Source of the DNA: an uncultured Fibrobacter sp.
GTDB taxonomy: Bacteria; Fibrobacterota; Fibrobacteria; Fibrobacterales; Fibrobacteraceae
Length of the DNA stretch: 26,032 bases
Direction of reading: 5' to 3'
Assembly (NCBI GenBank): GCA_937891805.1
Contig: CALATK010000136.1
Coordinates: 1-26,032, forward strand
Shown here: in pieces, positions 6,539 to 25,040 of the stretch
Layout of the letters: each line of letters opens with the position of its first letter
How positions within the stretch are numbered: the stretch's first letter is position 1
Position numbers and translations under genes: made by a program
Notes under the pieces: model-generated
What the model was told of the DNA's origin: nothing
Database searches by the model: none
Seen by the model: the letters and a program-made list of their open reading frames with translations, nothing else

Positions 6539-6554
6539 AATGCCGTAAATATAA

Positions 6555-9646: not shown

Positions 9647-10130
9647 GGACCTTTTTCTTTTTCCCGATAGACAAGTGGAAATAGATGGCCGCAACAAACA
9701 GCGTGTAGGCACACTCCGGAAGGGTCTTGGAAAAGAACAGGTTGGTAACCACATCCTTTTCGAGCCCCGTCAAGAAGAAATAAACCATGTCGCACACAAA
9801 GAATCCAAAGCCGAGCACTCCCAGTTTCATGGGCAGGTTCAATGTCAAGAACCTTTCTTCCAGCTGGCCCACCAAGAATCCGAGCACCGTCATGGAAATG
9901 GTGTTGGCACCAAGCCATTCCGCAGGTCCGTAGACATCCTGGGTAAATCCGGCAAAGAATCCCCAGAAGCACCCTGCCGCAGGCCCGAACTTGATGGCGA
10001 TGGACACGATCATGATAACGACAATATCGGGACTTGCTCCGAACAGCTGAATCCATTCAGCAACCGTCGTCTGCAAAATAAAGCAGACGATAAACACCAA
10101 CAGAACTTTTATCCACTTCAAGCTATTCAT
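9639..10130 (-). CDS. mreD: Rod shape-determining protein MreD
   Basis: MreD is a small inner-membrane partner of MreC in the elongasome. The 163-residue protein is almost entirely hydrophobic, with five or six membrane segments. It contains patterns usual for MreD, namely SPDIVVIMIVSIA, GFFAGFTQDVYGPAEWLGAN and ISMTVLGFLVGQLEERF. It ends in a basic tail (GKKKKVHV). Position between mreC and mrdA settles the name, because MreD sequences are poorly conserved. Its start overlaps the mreC stop by 8 nt, and its own stop overlaps the mrdA start by 8 nt. Confidence 0.92.
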   Translation of the reverse strand: MNSLKWIKVLLVFIVCFILQTTVAEWIQLFGASPDIVVIMIVSIAIKFGPAAGCFWGFFAGFTQDVYGPAEWLGANTISMTVLGFLVGQLEERFLTLNLPMKLGVLGFGFFVCDMVYFFLTGLEKDVVTNLFFSKTLPECAYTLFVAAIYFHLSIGKKKKVHV

Positions 10131-10950
10131 CTAAAAGTTCCTGCACAACCCATTCCGGTTCTTTGCCCATCACAAAGACCTCTTCCAAAGAAGAAAATTC
10201 CTGGAAAGGCATGACATCCATCAATTGCATCACTTCCAAGTCAGAGGGACGAATCTGGGTCACCGTACCCACCGGAATTCCTTTCGGGAAAATTCCGCCA
10301 AGGCCAGAAGTAATCAGGGTATCCCCCACTTTCACGCCGGCGTGGGTCGGAATCATAGCCGAAAGGGTTCGCCCATCTACAGATTCCAAGAAACCCACCA
10401 CCCGTGTCCTGCGCTCCAGTACAGACAACTTAAGATTCGGGTCCACCAAAAGCTGCACTCTGGAATGAGTGAGAGTAGCCTTAGAAACTTTTCCGACCAA
10501 GCCGTTCATAGAAAACACCGGCATATCTTCCTTGACACCTCTTGACGTTCCACGGTTGATGACAAGAGTCGTTAAAAAACGGCCGGGATTATGGCCCACC
10601 ACACGTGCGGTCACAATGGGATAGTCCCACTTGTCGTCAAAGCGCACTAGCGCATGCAGTCGGGCAAGTTCTTGTAGGGCTTCGCTGGCATAGTACGTCT
10701 CCTGCCGGAGCCTTGCGTTTTCCTCTTTCAGCATCTCATTTTCATGAGCCACTGAACGGAATTCATCTACCGACGAAATTACCATCTGCGCCGGATAAAA
10801 CACGGAGGCGAGAGCCGCCGATATGACGCTCTTCTGCGTCGCCTCCGGGGCCTGACGCATCAAGATTCCAAGCAGTAGAAAGAATGCAAAGGCGACTATG
10901 CCATGCTTCTGCGAAAACAAACCGACAATAAAGCGGAACGCTCTAAGCAT
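10123..10950 (-). CDS. mreC: Rod shape-determining protein MreC
   Basis: MreC is a bitopic periplasmic scaffold that binds and activates PBP2. The 275-residue protein has an N-terminal basic tail, one membrane helix (about 17-32), a coiled-coil region (about 60-105, with EFRSVAHENEMLKEENARL), and a two-lobed beta domain. Family motifs include VINRGTSRGVKEDMPV, NGLVGKV and SGLGGIFPKGIPVGTV near the C-terminal third. It lies 21 nt after mreB. No clear Shine-Dalgarno site precedes the ATG at 10950. The C-terminus ends in an acidic ELLDE. Confidence 0.94.
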   Translation of the reverse strand: MLRAFRFIVGLFSQKHGIVAFAFFLLLGILMRQAPEATQKSVISAALASVFYPAQMVISSVDEFRSVAHENEMLKEENARLRQETYYASEALQELARLHALVRFDDKWDYPIVTARVVGHNPGRFLTTLVINRGTSRGVKEDMPVFSMNGLVGKVSKATLTHSRVQLLVDPNLKLSVLERRTRVVGFLESVDGRTLSAMIPTHAGVKVGDTLITSGLGGIFPKGIPVGTVTQIRPSDLEVMQLMDVMPFQEFSSLEEVFVMGKEPEWVVQELLDE

Positions 10951-10971
10951 CGAGGACCGTTTTCAGTTAGG

Positions 10972-11994
10972 CTAGTTCGACGAGGCAATCAGTACAGGAC
11001 GATACTTGTCCAAATCTTCGAGAATGCGGGCGGCACCCTTGCAGACGCACACCAGGGCTTCGTCGATAACGTTTACAGAAAGGCCCGTCTCCTTGCGGAT
11101 ACGTTCGTCAAAGCCGCGAAGCTGAGAACCGCCGCCGGTCATGATAATGCCCTTGTCGTAAATGTCAGCAGAAAGTTCTGCAGGCGTCATGCTCAAGGCC
11201 TGTTTCACCGCTTCGATAATGGCGGTCACAGGTTCGTTCAAGGCTTCACGAATTTCCGTGCTGTTGATGGTCATGGTACGGGGCATACCCGCAATAAAGT
11301 CGTGACCGCGAACTTCCATGGTCAGTTCTTCTTCCAGTGGGCTTGCAGAACCAATCTGTATCTTGATCTGTTCAGCAGTACTTTCGCCCACATGCAAGTT
11401 GTACATCCTACGCAGGTAGCCCACGATGGCTTCGTCCATCTCGTCACCGCCCACGCGCACAGAAGCGTTGCAGACCGTTCCGTTCAAAGCAATCACGGCA
11501 ATGTCAGAAGTGCCACCGCCAATATCCACAATCATGTTACCAACAGGGTCTTCCACAGGGATTCCCATACCCACAGCAGCAGCCATAGGTTCGTGCACCA
11601 GGTGGACTTCCTTGGCACCTGCCTGCTTGGCGGCGTCAATCACGGCACGTTTTTCCACTTCGGTAATACCGCTGGGCACACCGACCACCACACGAGGTTT
11701 TACCATCCACAGGGGGTATTTCTGCACCCGCTTGATGAATGTCTGCAAAAGGGTTTCCACCAGTTCAAAATCCGCAATCACGCCATCGCGCATAGGGCGC
11801 ACGGCACGGGTTTCGCCAGGAGTACGGCCGAGCATTTTCTTGGCTTCGAAGCCGATGGCCGAAACCCTGTTGTTCTTGCTATCTACAGCAATCACGGTGG
11901 GTTCGTTAATTACAATTCCTTGACCTGCAACATGAACCAAGGTATTGGCGGTTCCGAGGTCTATACCGATATCGCAAGAAAATAATCCAAACAA
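10972..11994 (-). CDS. mreB: Rod shape-determining protein MreB (actin homologue)
   Basis: MreB forms ATP-dependent membrane-bound filaments that guide lateral wall synthesis. The 340-residue protein has the actin-fold nucleotide motifs: DIGIDLGTANT near residue 8 (phosphate 1), VDIGGGTSDIAV (phosphate 2) and MTGGGSQLRGF (adenosine). The N-terminal MFGLFSCD is a likely amphipathic membrane-binding segment, as in other MreB proteins. The start codon is TTG at 11994, not ATG. A GAGGG site lies 7 nt before it, and no in-frame ATG is near; an ATT directly precedes it. The gene heads the mreBCD-mrdA-rodA cluster. The region upstream contains TATATT at 12027-12032 and a CTAG-rich repeat. Confidence 0.96.
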   Translation of the reverse strand: MFGLFSCDIGIDLGTANTLVHVAGQGIVINEPTVIAVDSKNNRVSAIGFEAKKMLGRTPGETRAVRPMRDGVIADFELVETLLQTFIKRVQKYPLWMVKPRVVVGVPSGITEVEKRAVIDAAKQAGAKEVHLVHEPMAAAVGMGIPVEDPVGNMIVDIGGGTSDIAVIALNGTVCNASVRVGGDEMDEAIVGYLRRMYNLHVGESTAEQIKIQIGSASPLEEELTMEVRGHDFIAGMPRTMTINSTEIREALNEPVTAIIEAVKQALSMTPAELSADIYDKGIIMTGGGSQLRGFDERIRKETGLSVNVIDEALVCVCKGAARILEDLDKYRPVLIASSN

Positions 11995-12683: not shown

Positions 12684-13976
12684 TTAGAATGAATACGTTG
12701 CAGAGATTCTAGAGAAGATTCTGCCTTCGCCCTGGAAGGGGTTACGGAACAACAGGTCTTCAGCAACGGTCACATCAATTTTCAGTTTTTCTTCGATGTT
12801 GATGCCAAAACCAAAGCCCACATGGTCATCGGCAGTACCGTCAGCAAGCGGGTTCGTGCTGAAGAAGTTTCCGTCTTCACGGCAGATACCCTGACCAGAC
12901 TTGTTCTTTTCGTTGACGTCGCACTTGGTATAGAGGATAGACTTCTGACCGCCAACGCGAATCACGAACCAATCCCACCAAATGTTACGTTCGATACCGA
13001 AGGTAATCATACCGCCAATATCGGAACGCTTGTCCCAATGGGGGTGTTCTTCACCCTGAGAGTCATAAATGGATTCGCCAGACTCGTAGTCAAAGTACCA
13101 GTCGTGAGCCTTCAGCTTGTTCCAGATGAAGTCAGCACCCATCCAGAAGAAACCACGATCAAGCGCGACGTTGATACCGAGACCGGCCTGTGCATGCTTG
13201 TCTTCGATACCAGGAGCCTGCATCAACCTCATGGAGAAGGCCGGCACCAGCTCACCGTCCAGAGCGTCCAGCGTAAAGAAAGCGCGGGACTTGGCAAGGA
13301 AGGAGAAATCACCGTCATCGAAGAAATTCAGGTGTTCCGGACCGTACTGAATACGAGCCAAGCCAAAGCTGAACTCGAAATCAATATTGCTTCCGAACTG
13401 CAGATTCAAACCACCATCGGCCTGGACCGCAGAAGCGTATGCGCCGCCTTCCACTTGGTAGTCACCGCTTTCCGTCTTGTCGCCGCCATCCTGGTGGGCA
13501 ATGTAGATGTGCAAGCCCCAAGCATCTCCGTTAGAAAGGGTACCGCCCAAGAAGCCGTCGAAGTTCGTCACAGTCTCAGGAACTGCCGTGGTGTCGCCAG
13601 AGGTTTCACCAACAACTTTCGTCGGGAAATAACGCATCAGCTCGTTGTTAATACGGCCAAAAAGACCACCGATAGAGAGGCGCGGATCGGGATTGTTTTC
13701 GTCACCCAGAGAAAGCGAGAAAATGCCACCAAAGTTCGGATGCTGCGGATCCCTATTCGTTCCCGTAGGCACATCCTGGGTATAAGGTCCAAATTCACCG
13801 ATCAAGTAGTTCGGGTAAAGGTTGATGTTTGCAGCGTTGTCAAAGATGCTAACATCATCCATAATGTAAGTGGTGTTCTTGCCCATGGATTCCACACGGG
13901 CGAAGGTTGCAAAGGCAGACCCCACGCCGAGGACGCCGAAGGATAGACCCACTGCCGCAGCTGTTTTAAAATTCAT
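12684..13976 (-). CDS. Outer-membrane beta-barrel-like protein, unknown function
   Basis: The 430-residue protein has a signal peptide (MNFKTAAAVGLSFGVLGVGSAFA, cleavage near residue 23). Its mature part is rich in Gly, Asp and aromatic residues, with alternating strands such as ADFIWNKLKAHDWYFDY and HVGFGFGINIEEKLKIDV. It ends in an aromatic residue (ISATYSF), as barrel proteins recognised by the BAM machinery do. Two Cys (in KCDVNEKNKSGQGIC) could form a disulfide loop. No named family was recognised. An AGGAG ribosome site lies 9 nt before the ATG at 13976. Separate terminators lie upstream (14048-14080) and downstream (12634-12663), so it is probably a monocistronic unit next to the envelope-machine cluster. 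Confidence 0.82.
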   Translation of the reverse strand: MNFKTAAAVGLSFGVLGVGSAFATFARVESMGKNTTYIMDDVSIFDNAANINLYPNYLIGEFGPYTQDVPTGTNRDPQHPNFGGIFSLSLGDENNPDPRLSIGGLFGRINNELMRYFPTKVVGETSGDTTAVPETVTNFDGFLGGTLSNGDAWGLHIYIAHQDGGDKTESGDYQVEGGAYASAVQADGGLNLQFGSNIDFEFSFGLARIQYGPEHLNFFDDGDFSFLAKSRAFFTLDALDGELVPAFSMRLMQAPGIEDKHAQAGLGINVALDRGFFWMGADFIWNKLKAHDWYFDYESGESIYDSQGEEHPHWDKRSDIGGMITFGIERNIWWDWFVIRVGGQKSILYTKCDVNEKNKSGQGICREDGNFFSTNPLADGTADDHVGFGFGINIEEKLKIDVTVAEDLLFRNPFQGEGRIFSRISATYSF

Positions 13977-14047: not shown

Positions 14048-14080
14048 AAAAAAGACCGCGCTTTTGGCACGGCCTTTTTT
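14048..14080 (-). terminator. Terminator at the end of the Exb/TonB-like gene block
   Basis: On the minus strand GGCCGTGC pairs with GCGCGGTC (8 bp, two G-U pairs) around the loop CAAAA, and is followed by six T. A matching A-run on the other side would also allow termination in the opposite direction. It lies 21 nt after the stop of the TonB-like gene at 14101 and separates that block from the outer-membrane protein gene. Confidence 0.88.
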
Positions 14081-14100
14081 AGCATATCGCTAGACCTGAA

Positions 14101-15036
14101 TTATTCAGAGAAGGTGAACGGAATAGTTACCGTAGTGTTACCGGACTTCACCTTGCTGAACTTCCAGCGGCTCACGGCATTCTTGATTTCGCCATCAAAC
14201 TCGCCGTAACCAGTGGTGGAAGAAGCAATGGAAATGCTGATAACTTCACCGCCCGGAGCGATCGTGAACTTCAGGGTAACCTTACCCTGGAATCCCGGTT
14301 TCTTCTTCAGGAACTTGTTATAGATGTGGCGCAGACCCGGAGTACGCTGACGCACAACCTTCATGATGTCTGCAGCGGAACGAGATCCACCGCCGGCACC
14401 CATGTCGATATCGCGTTCAGACGGAGTCTTGATGGAGCCCTTAGCCTTGGTAGCGATACCACCGCCCCCCCCGCCAAGGAGGCCAGCCAGGCCGTCACCG
14501 ATACCACCGGAACCGCCTTCGGCATAACCTTCGTTAAAGCCACCATCAGCCTTACCGCGACGGCCACCGAGAACGGTCTTACCCGTAGTCTGGAGGCCTG
14601 CCACGTCCTTAAGAACCTTATCGATGTCCTTGGTGAACTTCTGGTTCTTCATCAGGTCGTAGGCAGCAGCACTAGCGTTTTTGGTCTGAGCAGTGAGGAG
14701 CTTAAGAACGCCACGAGTCTGGGGAGCGTTGGGCTGACCCTTACCACGGGGCTTGCCACCACCACCAGCCTTCTTACGAGGCTTCTTGGGCTCTTCTTTC
14801 TTCTTCTCTTCTTTCTTTTCTTCCTTCTTTTCGTCCATCACCATGGAAGCGGAAAGGTCGGCAGCTGCAGATTCTTCGAAGATCACTTCGTCAACCACAG
14901 CTTCGTACATGGAAGCCCACAGGGAGAAAGCAAGAGCAACGATCAAGGAGATACCGGCGATAGCACCCATCTTCTTGTCGGATTCCGGCATCAGGGACGC
15001 TACTAACGGATCTACAGGAGCTTTTTTCTTAGCCAT
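14101..15036 (-). CDS. TonB/TolA-like energy transducer with AgmX/PglI-type C-terminal domain
   Basis: The 311-residue protein should carry force from an inner-membrane proton channel to the outer envelope. It has a short cytoplasmic N-terminus, one membrane helix (about 23-42), a Lys/Glu/Pro-rich stretch (68-105), a flexible Gly-rich region (155-220) and a TonB-fold C-terminal domain (222-311). That last domain contains IMKVVRQRTPGLRHIYNKFL, then GKVTLKFTIAPGGEVISISI and AVSRWKFSKV. It matches the AgmX/PglI C-terminal class known from gliding bacteria. The ATG at 15036 has GGGAGGA 7 nt upstream. An upstream in-frame start inside the preceding gene is less likely. It begins 2 nt after the ExbD-like gene and ends the block. 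Confidence 0.88.
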   Translation of the reverse strand: MAKKKAPVDPLVASLMPESDKKMGAIAGISLIVALAFSLWASMYEAVVDEVIFEESAAADLSASMVMDEKKEEKKEEKKKEEPKKPRKKAGGGGKPRGKGQPNAPQTRGVLKLLTAQTKNASAAAYDLMKNQKFTKDIDKVLKDVAGLQTTGKTVLGGRRGKADGGFNEGYAEGGSGGIGDGLAGLLGGGGGGIATKAKGSIKTPSERDIDMGAGGGSRSAADIMKVVRQRTPGLRHIYNKFLKKKPGFQGKVTLKFTIAPGGEVISISIASSTTGYGEFDGEIKNAVSRWKFSKVKSGNTTVTIPFTFSE

Positions 15037-15038
15037 AA

Positions 15039-15533
15039 TTATTCCTCCCCGCCGTTCTTTTCCATCACGGCAAATGCGATGTTCGTGTAACCGGCAAAGC
15101 CACAAGTGGCCATCACCTTGTACATGGCATCGTACGGGATGTTCTTGTCAATCTGGACAATGATATGGCCAGCTTCATCAGCCGGGAGGCCCATCTTCAG
15201 GTTGTGTTCCTGTTCGATAGCGCGGCGATCTTTCAGAACGTCGTTCACCTTTTCGACCAGGAGTTCTTCCTGACTGAGGACATCGGGAGTGGGAACCACC
15301 TTTTCATTATCCACGATAACGTACGCATTATCGACCACCACCGTCAAGGACACTTCCGTAGGCTGAACCTTGGAGGTAGAGATCGGAAGAATCAGGTTTT
15401 CGGCCTGAGTCAAAAGCTGACCTTCAGCGTCCAGGTTCTTAATCATGAACACCAGAATGATGGTCATCATGTCCATCATGGACGTGAGGGAGAAAGGTAC
15501 GTCTTCGCTAAACTTACGAGTTCTTCTAGCCAT
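15039..15533 (-). CDS. ExbD/TolR-like protein with the proton-path aspartate
   Basis: ExbD/TolR proteins pair with ExbB/TolQ to turn proton flow into movement. This 164-residue protein has a basic N-terminus, one membrane helix (about 16-32) and a periplasmic domain. The helix reads TSMMDMMTIILVFMI, with Asp21 at the place of the essential ExbD/TolR aspartate. The periplasmic part contains LTVVVDNAYVIVDNEKV and HIIVQIDKNIPYDAMYKVM, the usual ExbD pattern. The ribosome site GGGAGG lies inside the last codons of the upstream gene, and the two genes are 2 nt apart, so translation is probably coupled. Confidence 0.92.
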   Translation of the reverse strand: MARRTRKFSEDVPFSLTSMMDMMTIILVFMIKNLDAEGQLLTQAENLILPISTSKVQPTEVSLTVVVDNAYVIVDNEKVVPTPDVLSQEELLVEKVNDVLKDRRAIEQEHNLKMGLPADEAGHIIVQIDKNIPYDAMYKVMATCGFAGYTNIAFAVMEKNGGEE

Positions 15534-15535
15534 GA

Positions 15536-16432
15536 TTAACCTCCCAACTTAGCAAGTTGAATCTTCACGAAACCAGCTTCTTTGGAGCGGTCCATGAGCT
15601 GAATGATCTTGTCAAATTGAGTATCGTCGTTTGCCACGATGATAATGTTATCCACGTCTTCGAGGTCAATAAACTGCGTATGAATTGCAATCAGGTCCTT
15701 CGCAATCAGGTCGTAGGCAGAAAGCGGATAGATCATGGTCTTGGCGGCCACGTCCGGCTTGAGCGTACGAGCGGAGTTAGGCGTAAGGGTTGCAAGGGTC
15801 ACGCCTGCACCGGGCTTCTTCAAAGCCGGCGGCGGGGTAAGTCCCAATGTGCCTTCGCCAGGGAGAGCGAGGAAGCTGTTGTTTCCATCTACATAAGCAC
15901 TGTCAGCAATGGGTTCTTCTGCAGAGCCGCCGTTGGTGTAAAGTGCCCAAATAACCTTACCGGGATCTTCTTCAGATTCCTTCTGGATTGCCCAGAGTTC
16001 GATGTTCTCGATTTCGTAAAGATACTTTTCTTTATCCATCTCAGAACCATCTTTGCACTTGGGTCCGTGTCCACTTTCCACTGTCGCCTTGACGTCGTCC
16101 ACGGCGTAGGTAATCAGTTTAGCATCGGACTTGCAGCGGAACGTCCACATTTCCTTGAAATAGACGTTGGGCTGGAAACCACCGCGTGCACCAATCACGA
16201 GATAATCGCTGGTAATCGCGAGGGAAAGGTTCAATGCTTGCTGGTCGGGCTCCGGAGGAGTGTCGTTGTCCATCTGCATCATAGAACGTTCAGGCAGATT
16301 GACTTCAACAATAGCCAGCTTGGAGAAAGCGGTCATAGACAACAGCATAGGAATCAGAATCGTGAACAAGCCCATGGCCGGCAACAGGTCCGGTTCTTCA
16401 GGCTTGGCTGGTTTCTTAAGTTGTCTTGCCAT
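15536..16432 (-). CDS. Divergent, enlarged ExbD/TolR-like protein lacking the membrane aspartate
   Basis: The 298-residue protein is almost twice the usual ExbD size (about 135-165). It starts MARQLKKPAKPEEPDLLPAM and has one membrane helix (about 18-36), then a large periplasmic part. The end, with IHTQFIDLEDVDNIIIVAND and DKIIQLMDRSKEAGFVKIQL, is clearly ExbD-like. Residues about 60-225 form an insertion with two close Cys (in FRCKS and PKCKDG) and a Pro/Gly linker. Aligned with its downstream neighbour, position 21 is Gly instead of the functional Asp. It probably forms a mixed pair with that neighbour. A GGAG site lies 8 nt before the ATG at 16432. Confidence 0.85.
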   Translation of the reverse strand: MARQLKKPAKPEEPDLLPAMGLFTILIPMLLSMTAFSKLAIVEVNLPERSMMQMDNDTPPEPDQQALNLSLAITSDYLVIGARGGFQPNVYFKEMWTFRCKSDAKLITYAVDDVKATVESGHGPKCKDGSEMDKEKYLYEIENIELWAIQKESEEDPGKVIWALYTNGGSAEEPIADSAYVDGNNSFLALPGEGTLGLTPPPALKKPGAGVTLATLTPNSARTLKPDVAAKTMIYPLSAYDLIAKDLIAIHTQFIDLEDVDNIIIVANDDTQFDKIIQLMDRSKEAGFVKIQLAKLGG

Positions 16433-16470
16433 TTTTATAACTCCGTTTAATTAAAAACTCTCAGTTGAAA

Positions 16471-17091
16471 TTAGGAGAGGGAGTTGATAATCTTGAGGCC
16501 CTTTTCTTCCATTTCCTGGATCAGGCGTTCGGAGTTCATGTTGAGAAGACCCACGATGACCAGAAGAGGCACAGCGGAGAGAAGTCCAAGGAGCGTCGTA
16601 CCCATAGCGATAGCGATACCGTCGGAAAGAGCCTTAGCACGTTCAGAAGCGGGTTTGTTAGCCACAGCATCGAATGTGAAGATCAGACCGTAAATCGTAC
16701 CCATCAGTCCGAGCAAGGTAGAGATAGAAGCCATCACCTGGATAATGCTGATATAACGGGTAAGACGAGGAGCTTCAGTCAGGAACACGGCGTCGCATGC
16801 GGCCTGCATGGTGTCGCGGCCACCGCTCTTGGCACCAACGATAGCAGCCATCACACGAGCAATGGGCAGGTTGGTCTTGTTGGCCAGGGTAAGAGCTTCT
16901 TCGAACTGCTGAGAGCTGATGAGCTTACCGAAGTCGGCCAGGAACTTGGCGCGGCCCTTGGAGCTCTTCACCATGATGTAGACGATACGTTCGATAGAAA
17001 AGCCCAGACCGATCATGAACACCACGAGGATGATCCACATGAACTGGTAACCATCAGATTCAGGGCTGAAGGATTGAAGCATTTTAGACAT
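16471..17091 (-). CDS. ExbB/TolQ/MotA-family proton channel protein
   Basis: This 206-residue inner-membrane protein has three membrane helices (about 17-37, 113-140 and 162-184), the ExbB/TolQ arrangement, with a cytoplasmic domain between the first two. Conserved stretches are STLLGLMGTIYGLIFTF (124-140) and GIAIAMGTTLLGLLSAVP (158-175), which line the channel in ExbB/TolQ/MotA. It would form a pentamer around ExbD-like helices and use the proton gradient. An AAAGGAG site lies 8 nt before the ATG at 17091. It begins 189 nt after the large TPR gene and is followed by two ExbD-like genes, then the TonB-like gene. Confidence 0.93.
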   Translation of the reverse strand: MSKMLQSFSPESDGYQFMWIILVVFMIGLGFSIERIVYIMVKSSKGRAKFLADFGKLISSQQFEEALTLANKTNLPIARVMAAIVGAKSGGRDTMQAACDAVFLTEAPRLTRYISIIQVMASISTLLGLMGTIYGLIFTFDAVANKPASERAKALSDGIAIAMGTTLLGLLSAVPLLVIVGLLNMNSERLIQEMEEKGLKIINSLS

Positions 17092-17181
17092 TAGTGTACT
17101 CCTTTAGAGTTGTTTTTGGTTTGTTTTTTGTAATTCCTGCGTTCATATTTATTTTTTTTAAAGCGATTTAGGGGCGTCAAG

Positions 17182-17203
17182 GCTGTAAAACTTTATTTAC
17201 AGC
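17182..17203. other. Perfect 8-bp inverted repeat upstream of exbB-like gene
   Basis: GCTGTAAA and TTTACAGC flank a 6-nt loop. No U-run follows on either strand, so it is not a standard terminator. It lies 91-112 nt upstream of the exbB-like start and could be an operator or an mRNA structure that adjusts expression of the second half of the block. Confidence 0.4.
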
Positions 17204-17236
17204 TCCCGATTTGCCCTCAAATGCTCTAAAAGGCGA

Positions 17237-17260
17237 GGGAACCCTATGAACAAGGTTCCC
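17237..17260 (-). terminator. Hairpin after the large TPR gene, probable attenuating terminator
   Basis: A perfect 7-bp stem, GGGAACC with GGTTCCC, encloses a 10-nt loop. On the minus strand it sits upstream of the exbB-like gene, and the following sequence (TCGCCTTTTAGAG) has only four T in a row. It lies between the TPR gene start side (stop at 17281) and the exbB-like gene, so it may reduce but not abolish read-through. Confidence 0.4.
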
Positions 17261-17280
17261 GTAAAATTGTTTTTACCGCA

Positions 17281-20200
17281 CTACTTTTTCTTCTTTCCCT
17301 TCTTTTTCGGGGCAGGAGCAGCAGCGGGGGCGGCCTCGGGTTCAGCACCAGATTCAGAAGCGCCTACTTCTGCACCTGCAGCACCGGCAGCGGAGGGAGC
17401 CGGGGCCATCTGAGCCTTCAGTTCAGCCAATTCCTTCTTCAACTTTTCGTTTTCAGCCTTGGCTTCCTTGATAATGTCGCGGTAGGTAGCGAGCTTTTCT
17501 TCCGGAGTCATGACTTCGGACTTGGAAATCTGCTCGATACGAGCCTTGGTCTTGAAGTAGGCCGGGTCAGCAAACAAGGTAGACGGGTCGAACTTTTCAA
17601 TCTTGGTGTTCAACGTCTCGTTTGTTTCATCCATCTGCTTCAAGAGTTCAAACAACTTGGCTGTCCACTGGTTGTCGATACCGTAGTGGGCAGAAGCCTT
17701 AATACCGGTTGCGCACACGGGCACAGCAGCCTGCTTTGCGGCGTCGGACTTGTTGTTCAGTTCTTCACGATAGGCTTCCAAGTCTTCGTGAGCCATTTCG
17801 ATAGCGTCTTCCTTCACAGCACCTTCGTATTCCACATATTCCCTTACGATGGCAGCGGAGTCCGGCAGCGGAGCGTTGGCGAAGGCATCAGCCACTTCGG
17901 CAAACACGGCGCACTGCTGGTAGTACATTTCGATATAGCCCTCTTCGGCCTGGATCACATCCTGGTTGTAGAAGCCCTGGTCACGAGCAAGGTCAATGTT
18001 CTTCTGGAAGATAGGACGAGCCTGGTCGTAGTAAGGAGGCAGCTGCTGCACGATAGTGATACGTTCAGCAAACATTTCTTCTTCGCTCTTGGCACTCTTT
18101 TCCTGTTCGCGAACCTTGGTGGCCATGACCACGAAGAGCATACCCATCTTGTTGGTGGCGCGGAAGGTCCACTTTTCAGAAGCGTAAGACGCAGACTTGG
18201 AGTAGTGACCCATGGCGGCCTGCAGGATTTCCACCAACTTCTTGATGGTCGCGGCCTTTTCCTTTTCCTTGCCCTTCAGCACATAGGGTTCCATCTTGTT
18301 GTATTCATGTTCACCCAAGTAGAAGGCTGCTTCGGCAGGAACACCCGGATCGGCGTTCTTGATTTGCAGACCGTACTTGTCGTAGTTCTTAAGAGTCTGG
18401 TCATAGTCGGCCACGGCCTTTTCTTCTTCCTTAAGTTCCATATAAGCACGAGCCGCACCGATATAGGCCGCAATCAGCTTTTCCTTGTCTTCGGTGTAGT
18501 TCTTGATGAAGAAGTGGTATTCCTTAGCGGCTTCATCCCACTTCTTGGCATTGGCGTAGGCCACGGGAATGCTGAAGGCAGCATCCAAAGCGTAAGTGCT
18601 CTTGGGATAGTCATGGACCAGGTCCTTGGAGCAGCGAATGGCTTCGTCGGTCATCTGGGCTTCATCGTAGCTCAAGCAGGCGCTATAGAGGAAGCTCGGA
18701 GTGCGTTCATCCTTGGGGTAGCGCTTGTAGGCCAGTTCGTAGGTAACGGCAGCCTGCTTCTTGTCCGGAATGGAGTCGAAAGTCTGGGCAGCAAAACCAA
18801 TCGCCTGGAAGGCCATGGAGTCTTGCGGGAAGTTATCCGTAATGAACAGGAATGTCTGAGCAGCCTGACGAGGATTACCAGCCTTCTTGTAGTTGCTTGC
18901 TGCACGCAGGATACCCCTGATAGTCAAAGAAGAACTTGCATACTGTCTGGGAAGCATCATGAACGTTTCGGCAGCCTGTTCATGCTTATTGGCCTGTTCA
19001 TAAGCGACAGCGGCTTCAAACACAGCCTTGTCGGCAAAGGAAACCAGCGGGTAACGCTTAACCAATGCCAAGTACGCCTGAGCACCTTCTTCGTACTGCT
19101 TATTCTTCACAGACTTTTCGGCCTTCTGGAAGAGCACGGCCGCGATAGCCTTCTCGATTTCCTTGGCCATGGAGTCGTTCTTGGTAGCCTTCACATCGTG
19201 GTACTGCTTGTACAACCATTCGAATTCCACCAAAGCTTCGTCCAACTGGTCAGATTCCAGCAAGGACTGGGCGAGCATACGACGAATCAGCAAAATGTAC
19301 TGGTGATCCGGATAACGCTGAACCAGGTCGCGCAACACGGTCACAGCAGTCTTGTACTGCTTAGCCTCGTAATGCACGATAGCGGCGTTGTAGGCAAGTT
19401 CAGCAGCTTCCTTGTTCTGACCAAACTTGGCCATATACTTGTCAACCTGAGCAAAGTAGGCCTTGGTTTCTTCACCCTTGTAGGCCTTAGTTGCATCGCC
19501 ACCGTACTTCTTGGTCTTGGCCGCTTCACGAGCCTGGTCCATCATGAGCACAGCGTTGTAGGCAGCTTCTTCTTTCTTCAGGAGTTCCTTGTCACCCATG
19601 GGACGACGTCCGTAGCGGGTGGTATCGGAATCCACGATCCAGTTGAACATCTTGGCAGCGTTTGCAAACTGTTGCATTTCCTGGTAAACCAGAGCCAAAT
19701 TGATGTGGACCCTGTATTCATCCCAGGACGGTTCCTTGGCATAACGTTTCAAGAATGCTTCATAGGCCTTGATGGCTTCGGCATACTGCTTCTTACCGGC
19801 TTCCAGGTCACCTTCTTTGGTGAGCTTGGCAGCACGAGCATGGTGATACTGCGGAATGTCCAGCATAGCGCCACGAATGGCCGTTTCGGCATTCTTCACA
19901 GATTCAGGATATTTCTGATTTTTCTTGTACCAAGAAGAGTTGCGGTCGTAGCGCTTCACCACGGTGTAGCGGTGTTGCTGAGCTTCTTCGAACTTCTGCT
20001 GGATGATGAGGATTTCAATCATCGCGATATCGGCCAGAGGAGCGTCGATGTAATCAGGGTTGATGGACATCAAGCGCTTGAAGGACTGCACCGCTTCTTC
20101 GTTACGGTCATGGTCCTTGTTCTTCATACCGATACGATAGTACACGGAGTCCTTGAAGGGAACCTTCTTGTCTTTCAAGAAAGCTTCGGCTTCGGCGACA

Positions 20201-21120
20201 CCACCGCCTTCCAAGTCAGAGAAGGAGGCTGCCATGAAGTCCATAGCTTCAGCACGAAGGTCGTTGGGGTATTTACCCTTATCGGCACCGATGATGTAGT
20301 CATAATACTTGACAGCAGCTGTTTCGTATTCAGCGATATTGTAGTAAGATTCTGCCAAGTGGTACATGGCAAGAGCAGCTTCCTTACCCGTCAAGTTTTC
20401 GAAACCAGTCACCTTCTTGTAGGCGTCGATAGCATCGCGGAACTTACGGTTCATGAAATGGTATTCTGCTATACGGAGCCATGCCTTGGGAACAAGGCCG
20501 TTATCCGGGAAGTTGCGGACCAGGCGTTCACGGAGGCGGAAAGCCTTTTCGTCTTCGCCACTAGCTTCTTGCACGGCGGCGGCCTGGTACAGCACCATGG
20601 GAGTCTTGCTTTCCTTGGGATACTTGTCGATGTATTCCAAGAAATAGCCAAGAGACTTCTGGTGGTCTGCCTTGGGGAACTGGTCGATGTTTGCGCACTT
20701 GGCGGGCTTGTTGTCGCGGTCGGCACACCAGGCCACGTCTTCTTCGTACTGGGCTTGCTTATCCAGGAAGAGCTTTTCTTCTAACTGGAACTGGTAGTGG
20801 CCCAACTGTTGCAAGGCAGAAGCGCAGCGGGCGTTCTGCTTACCCTTACAGTTGTTCACCTGCTTTTCCCACTGCTTGATAGCAGAGCGCATGCCTTCTT
20901 CGTCAAGACCACCAGAACGGCAAGCCTGAGCAGCCTGGTTTTTCAGGAGCTTGTAAGAGTTGGCGCAGTCCTTGTACTTTGCAGAGCCCTTTTCCATGGA
21001 CTTGCACTTTGCGTAGAGTTTCTTGGCTTCTTCGGTTTTATCCTTACAGGGATCGGAAGCGGCAAAGGAAGTTCCCACCAAGGAAAAGACCATTGCCGTT
21101 AAGAGTAAGATACGTTTCAT
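17281..21120 (-). CDS. Very large periplasmic TPR-repeat protein
   Basis: The 1279-residue protein has a signal peptide (MKRILLLTAMVFSLVGTSFA, cut near residue 20). The first 125 mature residues carry eight Cys in spaced pairs, starting DPCKDKTEEAKKLYAKCKSM. A long TPR array follows, roughly residues 165-1000, with repeats of the form AEYHFMNRKFRDAIDAYKKV and HYEAKQYKTAVTVLRDLVQRYPD. These resemble the YbgF/CpoB and BamD classes, which bind envelope partners. The tail has a coiled coil (about 1205-1235, EEKLATYRDIIKEAKAENEK), an Ala/Pro-rich linker and a lysine-rich end (KKKGKKKK). It follows the barrel-TPR gene by 45 nt and precedes the exbB-like gene. It is probably the periplasmic scaffold of the proposed complex. 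Confidence 0.88.
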   Translation of the reverse strand: MKRILLLTAMVFSLVGTSFAASDPCKDKTEEAKKLYAKCKSMEKGSAKYKDCANSYKLLKNQAAQACRSGGLDEEGMRSAIKQWEKQVNNCKGKQNARCASALQQLGHYQFQLEEKLFLDKQAQYEEDVAWCADRDNKPAKCANIDQFPKADHQKSLGYFLEYIDKYPKESKTPMVLYQAAAVQEASGEDEKAFRLRERLVRNFPDNGLVPKAWLRIAEYHFMNRKFRDAIDAYKKVTGFENLTGKEAALAMYHLAESYYNIAEYETAAVKYYDYIIGADKGKYPNDLRAEAMDFMAASFSDLEGGGVAEAEAFLKDKKVPFKDSVYYRIGMKNKDHDRNEEAVQSFKRLMSINPDYIDAPLADIAMIEILIIQQKFEEAQQHRYTVVKRYDRNSSWYKKNQKYPESVKNAETAIRGAMLDIPQYHHARAAKLTKEGDLEAGKKQYAEAIKAYEAFLKRYAKEPSWDEYRVHINLALVYQEMQQFANAAKMFNWIVDSDTTRYGRRPMGDKELLKKEEAAYNAVLMMDQAREAAKTKKYGGDATKAYKGEETKAYFAQVDKYMAKFGQNKEAAELAYNAAIVHYEAKQYKTAVTVLRDLVQRYPDHQYILLIRRMLAQSLLESDQLDEALVEFEWLYKQYHDVKATKNDSMAKEIEKAIAAVLFQKAEKSVKNKQYEEGAQAYLALVKRYPLVSFADKAVFEAAVAYEQANKHEQAAETFMMLPRQYASSSLTIRGILRAASNYKKAGNPRQAAQTFLFITDNFPQDSMAFQAIGFAAQTFDSIPDKKQAAVTYELAYKRYPKDERTPSFLYSACLSYDEAQMTDEAIRCSKDLVHDYPKSTYALDAAFSIPVAYANAKKWDEAAKEYHFFIKNYTEDKEKLIAAYIGAARAYMELKEEEKAVADYDQTLKNYDKYGLQIKNADPGVPAEAAFYLGEHEYNKMEPYVLKGKEKEKAATIKKLVEILQAAMGHYSKSASYASEKWTFRATNKMGMLFVVMATKVREQEKSAKSEEEMFAERITIVQQLPPYYDQARPIFQKNIDLARDQGFYNQDVIQAEEGYIEMYYQQCAVFAEVADAFANAPLPDSAAIVREYVEYEGAVKEDAIEMAHEDLEAYREELNNKSDAAKQAAVPVCATGIKASAHYGIDNQWTAKLFELLKQMDETNETLNTKIEKFDPSTLFADPAYFKTKARIEQISKSEVMTPEEKLATYRDIIKEAKAENEKLKKELAELKAQMAPAPSAAGAAGAEVGASESGAEPEAAPAAAPAPKKKGKKKK

Positions 21121-21165
21121 TATTCTCTATCCACCTATAATTTCTATAAAAGGGACGAACCCGGA

Positions 21166-23400
21166 TTACTCCAGGTCATCCAATTCCTCCAGTTCCTGAG
21201 CAGCGCCAGAACCACCGGCACCACCAGCCATCTTGGTCTTGACGGTAGCCAAAGTAAAGCCAGCGTCGTCCAAAATGCGCTTACGGTTAGATTCAAAGCG
21301 GTCGCTCTGAATGGACCTCTGAGTAAACTCAGCATAGTCTTCGATAGCCTTGTTGGCCTTATCGAAATCAGGCTTCAAAGCTTCACGCTTGCTTTCCACA
21401 CGAGGCGTGGGCAACTGACGGGCAAGGTCAAGAGCCTTGACCTGAACAGAATCGAAATCGTTCTGCATAGCTTCGTAAGCCTGACGGGCGCTGTCACGTG
21501 CGGCTACAGACACAACCGGCTGTTCCGTACGCTTTTCGGCCTGTTCCAGAGACTTCACGGCCTTGTCGTAGTCCTTCTTGATGAAGTAGCAGTAACCCTG
21601 AACCAGGTAGGCTTCGGAAACCAGGAAGGATTCCGGAAGGTTGCTGATAATCCAGTTGGCAGGCTTCAAAGCCTCGTCGGGCTTGTTCACCTTGAGGAAG
21701 GACCATGCGATACCGAGCATAGCTTCGTCATACACAGGGGAACCCGGTTCCACCTGGCCATACATCTGGGCGGCGGCAGCCACATCGGGCTTTTCGCCAG
21801 AGAAGTAGATATGGCCCAGCTTCACCTTGGCGGCATCCTGCAGGTCGCGTTCAGACTGGTTGGAAACCGGCTGTTCCGTAATGTCGCGGAAGCAGTTTTC
21901 GGCTTCTTCCCACTTGCCCATGCGGCTGTAGGCGATACCCATGGTATAACGGGCATAGAAGTAGTTTGCGTTACCGGGGAGAATAGCTGCGAGCAGGTCT
22001 ACAGATTCCTGATAGAGGCCCTGTTCGAACTTGATCTGACCGGCGATATAGTCGGCGTCCGCCTTCACGTCGCTCTTGCCGAACACCTGAACAATGTTCT
22101 GGTACTTGGCCATAGCGTCGGTGTACTTGCCTTCCTTATAGTCGATGTTCATCAACTGGAAGTGGTACTTGGCGTTCTGTTCCGTTCTGGGATAGCGCTT
22201 GATAGCGTCTTCGTAAACGGCACGGGCAGCCTTGTGCATGCGGAGGTTTTCAAAGGACTTTGCCTTGTAGAACGCGGCCTGGTCCACCAAGTGGAATGCG
22301 GGGTACTTGGTCTGGACCTTACCGAAGGCATAAGCGGCTTCGAGGAACTGACGGTTCAAGTAGAGACGCATAGCGGCGCGGTAATCGTTTTCAGGTTCGA
22401 TCTTCAAACGACGATACCGTTCTTCACCAATCTTCTCTTCACGAGTGTCACCGAAGCGGGTAGTGAGCTTCACAGCCCAGATAAAGCCACGGTTCTTCTT
22501 GGCGTAGAGGTCGTCGTGAGACATTTCCAGGTCAAGCTGCAGGTAGCGGAAGAAGCTTACGTCCTTCACGTTAACCGTAGCGCCGACAACCGGGTAACCT
22601 TCCTTCGTGAAACGAAGACGGACACCAAGGTGCGGGGACAGATAGTAGGTCAAGGTGAAGCTTTCTTCCAAGTTCATGCCCTCACCACCTTCTTCATCGT
22701 CGTGCATCACGTCGATAATAGAAAGTTCGGCCTTGGCCTCGAGAGCGCGGTTAAGCCCGCGGTAGAACAAGGAGAAGTTCAGGTTAGCAGGAATCTTGTA
22801 CGCTTCGCTCTCCGTAAAGAGGACCACCGTGGGTGCATCCTTTTCGGCGGTGCTTACTGCAGGCTGCAGAGCGTTCTGCAAAGCAACACCCACAAACAAG
22901 TCACCATACTTGGAGGAGGAAAGCGGGTTCCAGCTCACGCCCACGTCGGCACCGAAGGTCACGTGCTTCACTTCATCGAACTGGTTGATGTAAAGCACAG
23001 AGATGTCGAGACCCACGGCCACGCAGTGCATCAGGTTATAAGCATAGCCCAGCAAGAAGGCGAATTCATCGTAGGACTTGCCGCCATCGATAGAAGCACC
23101 GTTCTCGAAGAAGGAGAATCCGATGGTGTGCTTGTAATCCATAGGGAAAGCCAAACTCACGTATTCCTGGCTGGCTTCACCACTGATCGAACTGAAGAAA
23201 GCGGCACTTACTTCCAGCTGGTCCGTCATGGAAATTCCAGCGGGGTTCACATACATAGCAGTGTTGTTACTACCAAATTCACCGAACCAGTCGTTCTGCT
23301 GGTATTTGTGCGGGGAGTAGACTGCTTCAGCGTAAAGCGCGCTGGCAGCTACTGTTAGTCCGAGGACTGACGTTTTGATGAAACTAGTACGCATCATCAT
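21166..23400 (-). CDS. Outer-membrane barrel (PorV/FadL-like) fused to TPR domain
   Basis: The protein has up to 744 residues and a signal peptide ending near ASALYA. Residues about 27-320 look like an outer-membrane barrel of the PorV/UPF0164 type, with the telltale SNNTAMYVNPAGIS near the N-terminus and alternating strands. Residues about 335-650 form a TPR array (e.g. KYHFQLMNIDYKEGKYTDAM, AYSRMGKWEEAENCF), then a helical tail and an acidic end (ELEELDDLE). Three ATG codons stand in a row (23400, 23397, 23394). The AAGGAG site lies 3, 6 or 9 nt before them, so the second or third may be used. It starts 8 nt after the OmpA-family gene. It may anchor the large TPR protein to the outer membrane. 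Confidence 0.85.
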   Translation of the reverse strand: MMMRTSFIKTSVLGLTVAASALYAEAVYSPHKYQQNDWFGEFGSNNTAMYVNPAGISMTDQLEVSAAFFSSISGEASQEYVSLAFPMDYKHTIGFSFFENGASIDGGKSYDEFAFLLGYAYNLMHCVAVGLDISVLYINQFDEVKHVTFGADVGVSWNPLSSSKYGDLFVGVALQNALQPAVSTAEKDAPTVVLFTESEAYKIPANLNFSLFYRGLNRALEAKAELSIIDVMHDDEEGGEGMNLEESFTLTYYLSPHLGVRLRFTKEGYPVVGATVNVKDVSFFRYLQLDLEMSHDDLYAKKNRGFIWAVKLTTRFGDTREEKIGEERYRRLKIEPENDYRAAMRLYLNRQFLEAAYAFGKVQTKYPAFHLVDQAAFYKAKSFENLRMHKAARAVYEDAIKRYPRTEQNAKYHFQLMNIDYKEGKYTDAMAKYQNIVQVFGKSDVKADADYIAGQIKFEQGLYQESVDLLAAILPGNANYFYARYTMGIAYSRMGKWEEAENCFRDITEQPVSNQSERDLQDAAKVKLGHIYFSGEKPDVAAAAQMYGQVEPGSPVYDEAMLGIAWSFLKVNKPDEALKPANWIISNLPESFLVSEAYLVQGYCYFIKKDYDKAVKSLEQAEKRTEQPVVSVAARDSARQAYEAMQNDFDSVQVKALDLARQLPTPRVESKREALKPDFDKANKAIEDYAEFTQRSIQSDRFESNRKRILDDAGFTLATVKTKMAGGAGGSGAAQELEELDDLE

Positions 23401-23408
23401 CTACTCCT

Positions 23409-24926
23409 TTACTTGATATCCGTGCGCTTGAATTCGATACGACGGTTCTGCGCACGCCCTTCGGGGGTTTTGTTGGAGGCCACCGGCTTGGTATCACCCA
23501 TACCGGATGTTGTAATACGGCTTTCGGAAATACCCTTTTCTACAAGGAAGTTCTTCACAGCTTCGGCGCGGTCGGCAGAGAGCTGCTTGTTCTTGGCCTT
23601 GTTACCCTGGTTATCCGTATGGCCCACGATTTCAAAAGTAGCTTCGGTAAAGGTTTCCATGATGTCCACCACCTTCAAGAGGGAGATGTAGGAATCCTGA
23701 GTGATGGTTGCCTTACCAGATTCAAAGTTCACGCCTTCGAGCACGAACACCTTCTTGGGCGGCTGCGGCACTTCGTCCGGGCAACCGTCATCGTCCTTGA
23801 AGTCGTTGATGGTTTCGGGCTGTTCGGGGCAAAGGTCAACTTCTTTACAGACGTGAGCAAAGTTAGCTTGCATAGCCTTGGCTTCAACCCAAGGATCGCA
23901 GATACCGTCGCGGTCGTTGTCGGCATCCGGGCAGCCATCATCATCTTGATAGCCGTCAAAGTCTTCACCTTCTTCGGGGCAGTTGTCCACACCGGTACAG
24001 ACCGATGCGTATTTGTCTGCAAGACCCTCTTCGGAGACCCAAGGATCGCACATGCCGTCGGCATCGGTGTCCGGATTACGGGTCTCTTCCACTTCTTCCT
24101 CTTCCTTCTCAATCTCAGTAGCAGTAAGGCCGATATCCAACTTACCCTTTCCACGCTTGAGCATCGGCGAGGTGGACTGGCAGTAGAAGTTCGGCTTCGA
24201 AAGAGAGTGGTTGATGAACTTCGGATCAAGGGAAACGTTGGTACGGTTCACCTTGATGAACTGGTTGAAGGGGTAGTAGTTCTTGTAGATGTTGTTGTAC
24301 TCCACCTTGGTCTGACCAGCAGCAGGGTCGGCGAACACACCATAGTAGTGGTTCTCCATAAAGATGTTGTTGGTGGCGATAACGTTGGTGGGGCCCTTCA
24401 GGGCAAGGCCGGAATAGCCGTTGCGGAGCACTACGTTCTGTTCGATGGAAGCGTCCAGGGCCTTAGCACCCCAAGCGAGGATGCCGGACCAGCGGTTGCC
24501 GTACACCACGTTATTGCGGAGGTGAGGAAGCGAAATGAACGCACCGATACCCGTGGCCTTGTTGTCCAACACATAGCAGTGGTGGATGTAAGGGGCGGCG
24601 TTTTCGCAAAGGATGCCTTCAAGACCGTTCCTGATGGTGAAGTGCGACATCTCGGCGCCCGAAGTACCCATGACGGTCGGACCATTGCGGCCGCCATCGA
24701 TAATCGTCGTGAGCGGGTCTTCACCTTTCAAGACCACGTCCATCACCAAGGTAATGTTTTCGTTGTAGGTGCCGCGCTTTACCAAGATGGTATCGCCAGC
24801 ATCCGCATTGCCAAGAGCGTCGGCAATCTTTGAGTAATCGCCAGGCACGTTGATATTCTTTGCCATGGCGGTTCCAGAAAGAAGCATCGCCCCGGCCGTT
24901 ACTAAGACCAGTTTCTTTAGGGTCAT
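23409..24926 (-). CDS. OmpA-family protein with beta-helix and thrombospondin-type-3 repeats
   Basis: This 505-residue protein should join the outer envelope to peptidoglycan. It has a signal peptide (cut near TAMA, residue 22), and a right-handed beta-helix of the pectin-lyase/NosD type (about 24-235, with PYIHHCYVLDN and NNIFMENHYYGVFAD). After an acidic linker come two tandem 50-residue units with thrombospondin type 3-like calcium loops (DTDADGMCDPW and DNDRDGICDPW). The C-terminus is an OmpA/Pal domain (about 394-499) with VNFESGKATIT, VGHTDNQG and NRRIEF, including the Asp and Arg that bind diaminopimelate in this family. The ATG at 24926 is preferred to an upstream TTG at 24944. It is the first gene after the promoter at 25012-25040. 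Confidence 0.92.
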   Translation of the reverse strand: MTLKKLVLVTAGAMLLSGTAMAKNINVPGDYSKIADALGNADAGDTILVKRGTYNENITLVMDVVLKGEDPLTTIIDGGRNGPTVMGTSGAEMSHFTIRNGLEGILCENAAPYIHHCYVLDNKATGIGAFISLPHLRNNVVYGNRWSGILAWGAKALDASIEQNVVLRNGYSGLALKGPTNVIATNNIFMENHYYGVFADPAAGQTKVEYNNIYKNYYPFNQFIKVNRTNVSLDPKFINHSLSKPNFYCQSTSPMLKRGKGKLDIGLTATEIEKEEEEVEETRNPDTDADGMCDPWVSEEGLADKYASVCTGVDNCPEEGEDFDGYQDDDGCPDADNDRDGICDPWVEAKAMQANFAHVCKEVDLCPEQPETINDFKDDDGCPDEVPQPPKKVFVLEGVNFESGKATITQDSYISLLKVVDIMETFTEATFEIVGHTDNQGNKAKNKQLSADRAEAVKNFLVEKGISESRITTSGMGDTKPVASNKTPEGRAQNRRIEFKRTDIK

Positions 24927-25011
24927 ACTGCTACGTTTCTCCAATCATAGAACACATAAATTCGTTTAGCTTTATCATTTGCCAAGACTGACAAAATCAA
25001 ACTCAAGTGGG

Positions 25012-25040
25012 AATATACCTCAAAAATCGAGTTTAGTCAA
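25012..25040 (-). promoter_or_regulatory. Sigma70-type promoter for the seven-gene envelope block
   Basis: On the minus strand the -35 hexamer TTGACT (25035-25040) and the -10 hexamer TATATT (25012-25017) are separated by exactly 17 bp. Transcription would start near 25005, giving a leader of about 80 nt before the ATG at 24926. This is the best promoter match in the window, and it stands directly before the first gene of the block. Confidence 0.65.

Follow-up and report, generated by a model that had tools for sequence, protein, structure and literature searches.

Glt/Agl-type machines and the Fibrobacter block

In motors of the MotAB, ExbBD, and TolQR type, known as 5:2 assemblies, both axle subunits are copies of one aspartate-carrying protein. 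The transmembrane (TM) aspartate of TolR, ExbD, and MotB is the likely proton-binding site (PMC4646322, PMC9389320). In Myxococcus xanthus, this residue is predicted in AglQ as well as in AglS, and whether the two form hetero- or homodimers is stated as not known (PMC9389320). The Glt/Agl "core complex" (Group B: gltC, D, E, and G together with aglRQS) lies in one cluster outside the Deltaproteobacteria. It was reported in Fibrobacter succinogenes in 2011, including a tree that places its sequences with those of Agl/Glt (PMC3169522). This is the one report of Glt/Agl or gliding genes in Fibrobacteres that we found, which is thin evidence that no other is in print. Here, we describe a block of genes in a 26,032-nt stretch of DNA from an uncultured Fibrobacter sp. 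(referred to as the window; coordinates count from its position 1). In the direction of transcription, the block encodes an OmpA-type protein (g7), a barrel-tetratricopeptide repeat (TPR) fusion (g6), a giant TPR protein (g5), an ExbB-like protein (g4), two unlike ExbD-type proteins (g3 and g2), and a TonB-like transducer (g1), and it is followed by an eighth gene (g0). The block is probably a divergent Glt/Agl-type trans-envelope machine, driven by the proton-motive force (PMF) and with an asymmetric motor.

The block and the core complex share a TolQ-type protein, two TolR-type proteins, a GltG-type transducer, and secreted TPR proteins (PMC3169522). One TolQ-type and two TolR-type genes are contiguous with the transducer gene both in the window and in all 20 Fibrobacterota loci that were hand-picked among g3-matching genomes to span families. 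The transducer g1 (14101..15036, minus strand; 311 aa) scores 81.5 bits on the model for the AgmX/PglI C-terminal domain (NF033768; cut-off 40) and lower, 45.1 bits, on TonB. Three distant loci reach 80.3 to 90.8 bits on NF033768, likewise over the cut-off. On the GltG model (NF033760), g1 scores 59 bits and covers model positions 413 to 646 only, below the full-length threshold of 650 bits; the three distant loci score 85.5 to 101.8 bits and the relatives overall 85.5 to 112.6 bits. The TPR proteins are of a size that would suit GltC, D, and E, and GltD is, with 1191 aa, in the same size class as g5 (Table 1 of PMC3169522). For GltC, the best score is 29 bits (locus L042) against a cut-off of 450 and none is listed for the window; matches of TPR proteins are unspecific. 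The motor class, the transducer class, and a probable trans-envelope action on surface material are shared also with the Agl-Glt gliding and Agl-Nfs sporulation machines of M. xanthus. Parts that set the block apart from the core complex are the barrel-TPR fusion, the beta-helix OmpA protein, and the PopA-like barrel encoded by g0.

The preliminary description regarded this part list as unlike any nameable system. That holds only in part, since the kind has been known in outline since 2011 (PMC3169522) and a function has been proposed for the F. succinogenes counterparts FSU_2396-2403 (PMC6851124). The block has an asymmetric motor, for which no published description was found, an eighth member, g0, and a gene order that is kept across most examined loci of the phylum.

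An ExbD pair with one transmembrane aspartate

The first ExbD/TolR-type protein, g3 (15536..16432, minus strand; 298 aa), is predicted to fold with a large periplasmic insert and has glycine at the position of the TM aspartate. A sequence search of the PDB with g3 at an E value of 1 gave no match. In an alignment of 51 rows, in which the window and 30 further rows represent close same-genus relatives, this position is Gly in 37, Asn in seven, Ser in three, Ala in three, and Cys in one, and Asp in none. The second protein, g2 (15039..15533, minus strand; 164 aa; Pfam ExbD, 2.5e-14), keeps the aspartate in 50 of 50 rows. The same loss is seen among database relatives of g3: with 120 of 139 matches listed, the 117 that have a letter at the site show 80 Asn, 31 Ser, three Ala, one Gly, and two Asp. 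The two Asp-bearing sequences among the matches listed (P0111 and P0113) suggest that g3 descended from an ordinary ExbD. The named relatives among these matches belong to Fibrobacterota or Raymondbacteria, apart from one labelled Elusimicrobia and one labelled "bacterium".

A short form of g3, present in Calditrichota and Raymondbacteria, has Asn at the site in all 120 sequences listed of 519. Its partner ExbD keeps the aspartate in L212, L215, and L221, and the two Calditrichota loci thus show the same split; a tblastn search of plasmids with a Calditrichota g3 gave no match. The asymmetry is kept across the phylum and also found in Calditrichota. The ExbD/TolR proteins of other loci from the same genus or family (L085, L086, L087, and L088) keep the aspartate.

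The simplest reading of the ExbD pair is that the axle must be a heterodimer and has a single proton site, and we give this reading about an even chance of being correct. No published description of an Asp-free ExbD partner was found, although a literature search is thin evidence of absence. The pair represents a natural experiment on two questions: can a single proton site suffice, and do two different subunits make up the axle?

Additional Asp-free ExbD proteins are encoded at three loci of the Raymondbacteria genome G167 (L094, L097, and L100). L097 (5969-8034, minus strand) is a separate ExbB-ExbD-ExbD locus that pairs an Asp-bearing ExbD with a long one of 269 aa, which has Asn at the site. 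L094 (8422-9711, plus strand) has a 430-aa open reading frame (ORF) in which an ExbB-like domain is fused to an ExbD-like domain without the aspartate; a separate ExbB gene immediately precedes this ORF. Similarly, ExbB- and g3-type matches both fall within one 436-aa frame on contig C39 of genome G032, and more g3-like matches lie in frames of 432 to 446 aa.

Conservation of gene order

A single-sequence search detected g3 in 149 of 167 Fibrobacterota genomes. A profile search was run on 76 Fibrobacterota genomes, namely those returned by a 95% completeness filter, the nearest genome G001 (listed at 84%) being included. It gave a match of any strength in 75 and a match at E 1e-49 or better in 70; the six genomes that lack a strong match are G016, G156, G157, G160, G163, and G166.

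The order g4-g3-g2-g1 (ExbB-ExbD-ExbD-TonB) is kept in 20 of the 20 chosen loci, and g5 adjoins it in 18. All seven genes stand in order in 14 loci (L031-L036, L039-L042, L045, L046, L048, and L049). Among the others, L050 lacks g7, L043 ends at a contig edge after g5, and L044 and L047 carry g5 to g1 only. Comparison of gene order across Fibrobacterota had been put forward in the preliminary description as a test of the block, with loss of the order in close relatives as the refuting result; this did not occur, and the synteny reaches other families and classes. A homologue of g0 directly follows g1 in 18 of the 20 loci (exceptions L035 and L040), four of the 18 having been used to build the search profile. 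In L050 (3585-4861, minus strand), two ORFs of 248 and 175 aa take the place of one TonB-like gene, which may reflect a frameshift or a sequencing error.

The block is also found in the Candidatus Raymondbacteria genome G167 and, in an altered form, in Calditrichota. In the Calditrichota loci L212 and L215, the large-TPR, motor, and GltG-type genes follow the order of the block: a gene with weak TPR likeness comes first, then one for a very large TPR protein, ExbB, the first ExbD in a short form, the second ExbD, and the GltG-type gene. No g0 homologue was found in any of ten further loci (L212-L221), which are from Calditrichota or are additional sites with GltG-type genes in a Raymondbacteria genome.

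Counterparts in F. succinogenes S85 and the cellodextrin-uptake proposal

The counterparts of the block in F. succinogenes S85 are FSU_2396-2403. The S85 relative of g6 (P0348) is 79% identical over its length, and its computed mass (83.838 kDa), isoelectric point (5.51), and grand average of hydropathy (-0.341) agree with the published values for FSU_2397 (83.84, 5.51, and -0.341; PMC4619616). By size and order, the counterpart of g7 is FSU_2396 (55.97 kDa, signal peptide cut at 28-29; PMC4619616). FSU_2396-2398 and FSU_2400-2403 are 1.2- to 1.73-fold higher in cellulose-grown cells (PMC6851124), and FSU_2396/2397 were reported to share a complex with a fibro-slime protein and cellulases (Arntzen et al. 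as cited by PMC6851124).

The authors of the 2019 proteomics study of S85 proposed that FSU_2400-2403 serve active cellodextrin uptake as a TonB/ExbB/ExbD system and that FSU_2396/2397 form a surface scaffold (PMC6851124). An uptake role would fit the TonB_C domain of g1, the rise on cellulose (PMC6851124), and the two predicted outer-membrane barrels, g6 and g0; ExbB and ExbD are shared with such systems as well. However, the domain scan of the block proteins and the downstream barrel g0 identified neither a plug nor a receptor domain of the TonB-dependent kind, the proposing authors found no MalA-like receptor (PMC6851124), and the GltG/AgmX domain gives g1 a higher score than TonB does (see above). 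The two unlike ExbD proteins and the large TPR parts also differ from a TonB-ExbB-ExbD uptake system, and the genus has another TonB/ExbB locus, which includes a receptor of its own (see below). We therefore consider uptake as the function of the block very unlikely. Because the synteny is conserved, the two halves, scaffold and putative uptake system, are instead taken as one machine.

Proposed mechanism

The part list, the gene order and its conservation, the loss and retention of the aspartate, and the predicted folds of g3 and g6 are read directly from the data. From these we infer a 5:2 assembly, a heterodimeric axle, a chain of contacts, and an output. A pentamer of g4 would turn around an axle made of the two different ExbD proteins, and the proton-binding aspartate would come from the shorter one, g2, alone. 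The longer, Asp-free g3 would provide the other helix of the axle as well as a bulky domain in the periplasm. Motion might then be carried across the periplasm by the GltG-type g1 to the giant TPR protein g5 and the barrel-TPR protein g6, and g7 may anchor the outer-membrane side on peptidoglycan. The machine of Fibrobacter would probably do mechanical work on a complex at the cell surface, with cellulases and fibro-slime proteins among its members. The interpretation in the preliminary description is borne out in part: one conserved PMF-driven trans-envelope unit is supported by the synteny, the joint rise of the FSU counterparts on cellulose (PMC6851124), and the GltG/AgmX-type transducer, with adhesion, gliding, stability, and secretion as candidate uses of the force. 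The block also gives a testable name to a motor that is co-regulated with surface-attached cellulose breakdown in Fibrobacter.

Several points weigh against a Glt/Agl-type machine of this kind. The g3/g2 pair is unlike AglQ/AglS, both predicted with Asp (PMC9389320); relative to the core complex, the Asp-free TolR-type protein is a difference known from the block side only. The FHA half of GltG is absent from g1, and the TPR likeness is too generic to prove orthology to GltD or GltC. L037 and L038 carry g4-g1 only, with no TPR or OmpA genes beside the motor. The occurrence in Raymondbacteria and Calditrichota makes cellulose adhesion unlikely as the general role, and an earlier proteome detected FSU_2397, FSU_2398, and FSU_2400 in both glucose- and cellulose-grown cells (PMC4619616). 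Unlike M. xanthus, F. succinogenes is described as not actively motile, with no demonstrated motility and no known motility genes found (PMC3079729). We found no mutant phenotype for the block.

Other motor loci and the Tol-Pal alternative

Seven ExbB-type genes score over the cut-off in the same-genus genome G106, in five loci including this block. L085 is a Tol-Pal locus with TolQ, TolR, a TolA-like protein, a TolB-like propeller, an OmpA-type Pal, and a TPR protein, TolA and the lipoprotein nature of Pal being judged by eye. L086 is an iron/TonB locus (FeoB, the receptor plug of a TonB-dependent receptor, TonB, ExbB, and ExbD), and L084 and L087 are two DUF3450/paired-ExbB/TonB loci. Since the other four loci are of these kinds, the motor of the block is an extra one. 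For the same reason, the core complex reported in 2011 is taken to be this block, which is likely but not proven.

A device resembling Tol-Pal, acting in outer-membrane stability and constriction, would use the same part classes: TolQ, TolR, a TonB/TolA-like protein, a CpoB-like TPR protein, and an OmpA-type anchor. However, the block lacks a TolB-like gene (the Pfam scan gave no propeller) and has two unlike ExbD proteins, and the distinct locus L085 excludes its identity with Tol-Pal itself. A Tol-Pal-like role is accordingly highly improbable.

Type IX secretion

SprA, the type IX translocon, is present in 76 of 76 Fibrobacterota genomes, and the PorV family and cargo signals occur in the phylum, yet no GldLM motor was detected. 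Neither GldL nor GldM scored over the cut-off in any of the 76 genomes, in searches that reached no positive control and that left 14 control genomes unmatched as well. GldM was searched in this set only. For GldL, 12 SprA-bearing genomes gave one weak match and 60 genomes from the phylum of G168 (records named WOR-3 and Stahlbacteria) gave seven, none over the cut-off, and neither group includes a known GldL carrier. In eight stretches around SprA or SprE-like genes, visual inspection that used just TM counts and the starts of ORFs likewise revealed no evident pair resembling GldLM.

This gap raises the possibility that the block is a type IX motor that replaces GldLM and energizes SprA through the PorV-like barrel-TPR and TPR proteins. 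In both systems, a PMF-driven motor goes together with TPR proteins and barrels of the outer membrane. However, the block motor is of the ExbB/ExbD type (its proteins match MotA_ExbB and ExbD, with no Gld motor model listed), and it has no demonstrated physical or genetic link to SprA. In addition to the GldL/GldM negatives being without a positive control, FadL barrels equal PorV in score, and unrelated TPR proteins, for example LGN, outscore SprE. A strong g3 match is wanting in six of the 76 SprA-bearing genomes, and a GltG-type protein is over the cut-off in just two of 11 SprA-bearing genomes named as other phyla (both Calditrichota). The two same-genus paired-ExbB loci could supply the force instead. 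A type IX role is thus rather unlikely and weaker than the Glt/Agl reading. In a combined model, Fibrobacterota would have a type IX system without GldLM, in which SprA is driven through the PorV-like barrel-TPR protein by a Glt-type motor whose axle is an obligate heterodimer with a single proton site. This model is unlikely too; its asymmetric-axle half, at roughly even odds, is much likelier than its secretion half.

The idea that g6 represents PorV fused with a missing SprE is weakened, as additional PorV-family proteins were found outside the block in eight of eight genomes examined and a separate SprE-like protein of approximately 640 aa is encoded elsewhere. The SprE model is unspecific: it matches 76 of 76 Fibrobacterota and 11 of 14 control genomes, none over the cut-off. 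The SprE/PorW-like protein, weak on this model, is seen at L231 (5487-7406), L234 (3-1814), and L238 (7001-8923), with a lipoprotein-like start in L231 and L238 as judged by eye, and it lies roughly 11 to 31 kb from SprA in G096, G068, G058, G072, and G119. SprA homologues also occur in L120, L133, L138, L143, L151, and L183, from records named Calditrichaeota, Neomarinimicrobiota, Stahlbacteria, Eisenbacteria, WOR-3, and Edwardsbacteria.

Organization of the window

The ORF check and Pfam scan of the window, together with promoter and hairpin scans, confirm the arrangement given in the preliminary description: a promoter candidate, seven genes in the listed order, and a terminator-like hairpin, all on the minus strand. 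The sigma-70-like promoter candidate (TTGACT-17-TATATT; 25012..25040, minus strand) matches the consensus at 10 of 12 positions; with 14 such sites found in the scanned region against 9.2 expected, it is backed by placement only. The first gene, g7 (23409..24944, minus strand; 511 aa, or 505 aa from the alternative start ATG 24926), encodes a secreted beta-helix (Pfam Beta_helix, 4.9e-14), an Asp-rich linker, and an OmpA peptidoglycan-binding domain (3.8e-26). It is followed by g6 (21166..23400, minus strand; 744 aa), which is predicted to join, in one chain, an outer-membrane barrel of the FadL/PorV type with a TPR superhelix and a long C-terminal helix. The secreted giant TPR protein g5 (17281..21120, minus strand; 1279 aa; Pfam TPR_6, 5.7e-29) has an N-terminal hydrophobic segment. 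The ExbB/TolQ/AglR-type proton-channel subunit g4 (16471..17091, minus strand; 206 aa; Pfam MotA_ExbB, 2.4e-21) has three TM segments, and a sequence search of the PDB matched TolQ and ExbB chains. Beyond g3, g2, and g1, the last of which lacks an FHA domain, an intrinsic-terminator-like hairpin of 14 pairs (14048..14080, minus strand) lies 3' of g1. The eighth gene, g0 (12684..13976, minus strand; 430 aa), lies beyond this hairpin and encodes a PopA-like outer-membrane barrel (porin) that scores 38.7 bits on NF053618, below the cut-off of 150.

Further downstream on the same strand (window 4808-11994) is a rod-shape gene set with GlgE-like, RodA/FtsW, PBP2-type transpeptidase, MreC, and MreB genes. 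Upstream of the block, an ORF at window 25440-25904 matches the C-terminal part of PF02621, a family of menaquinone biosynthesis.

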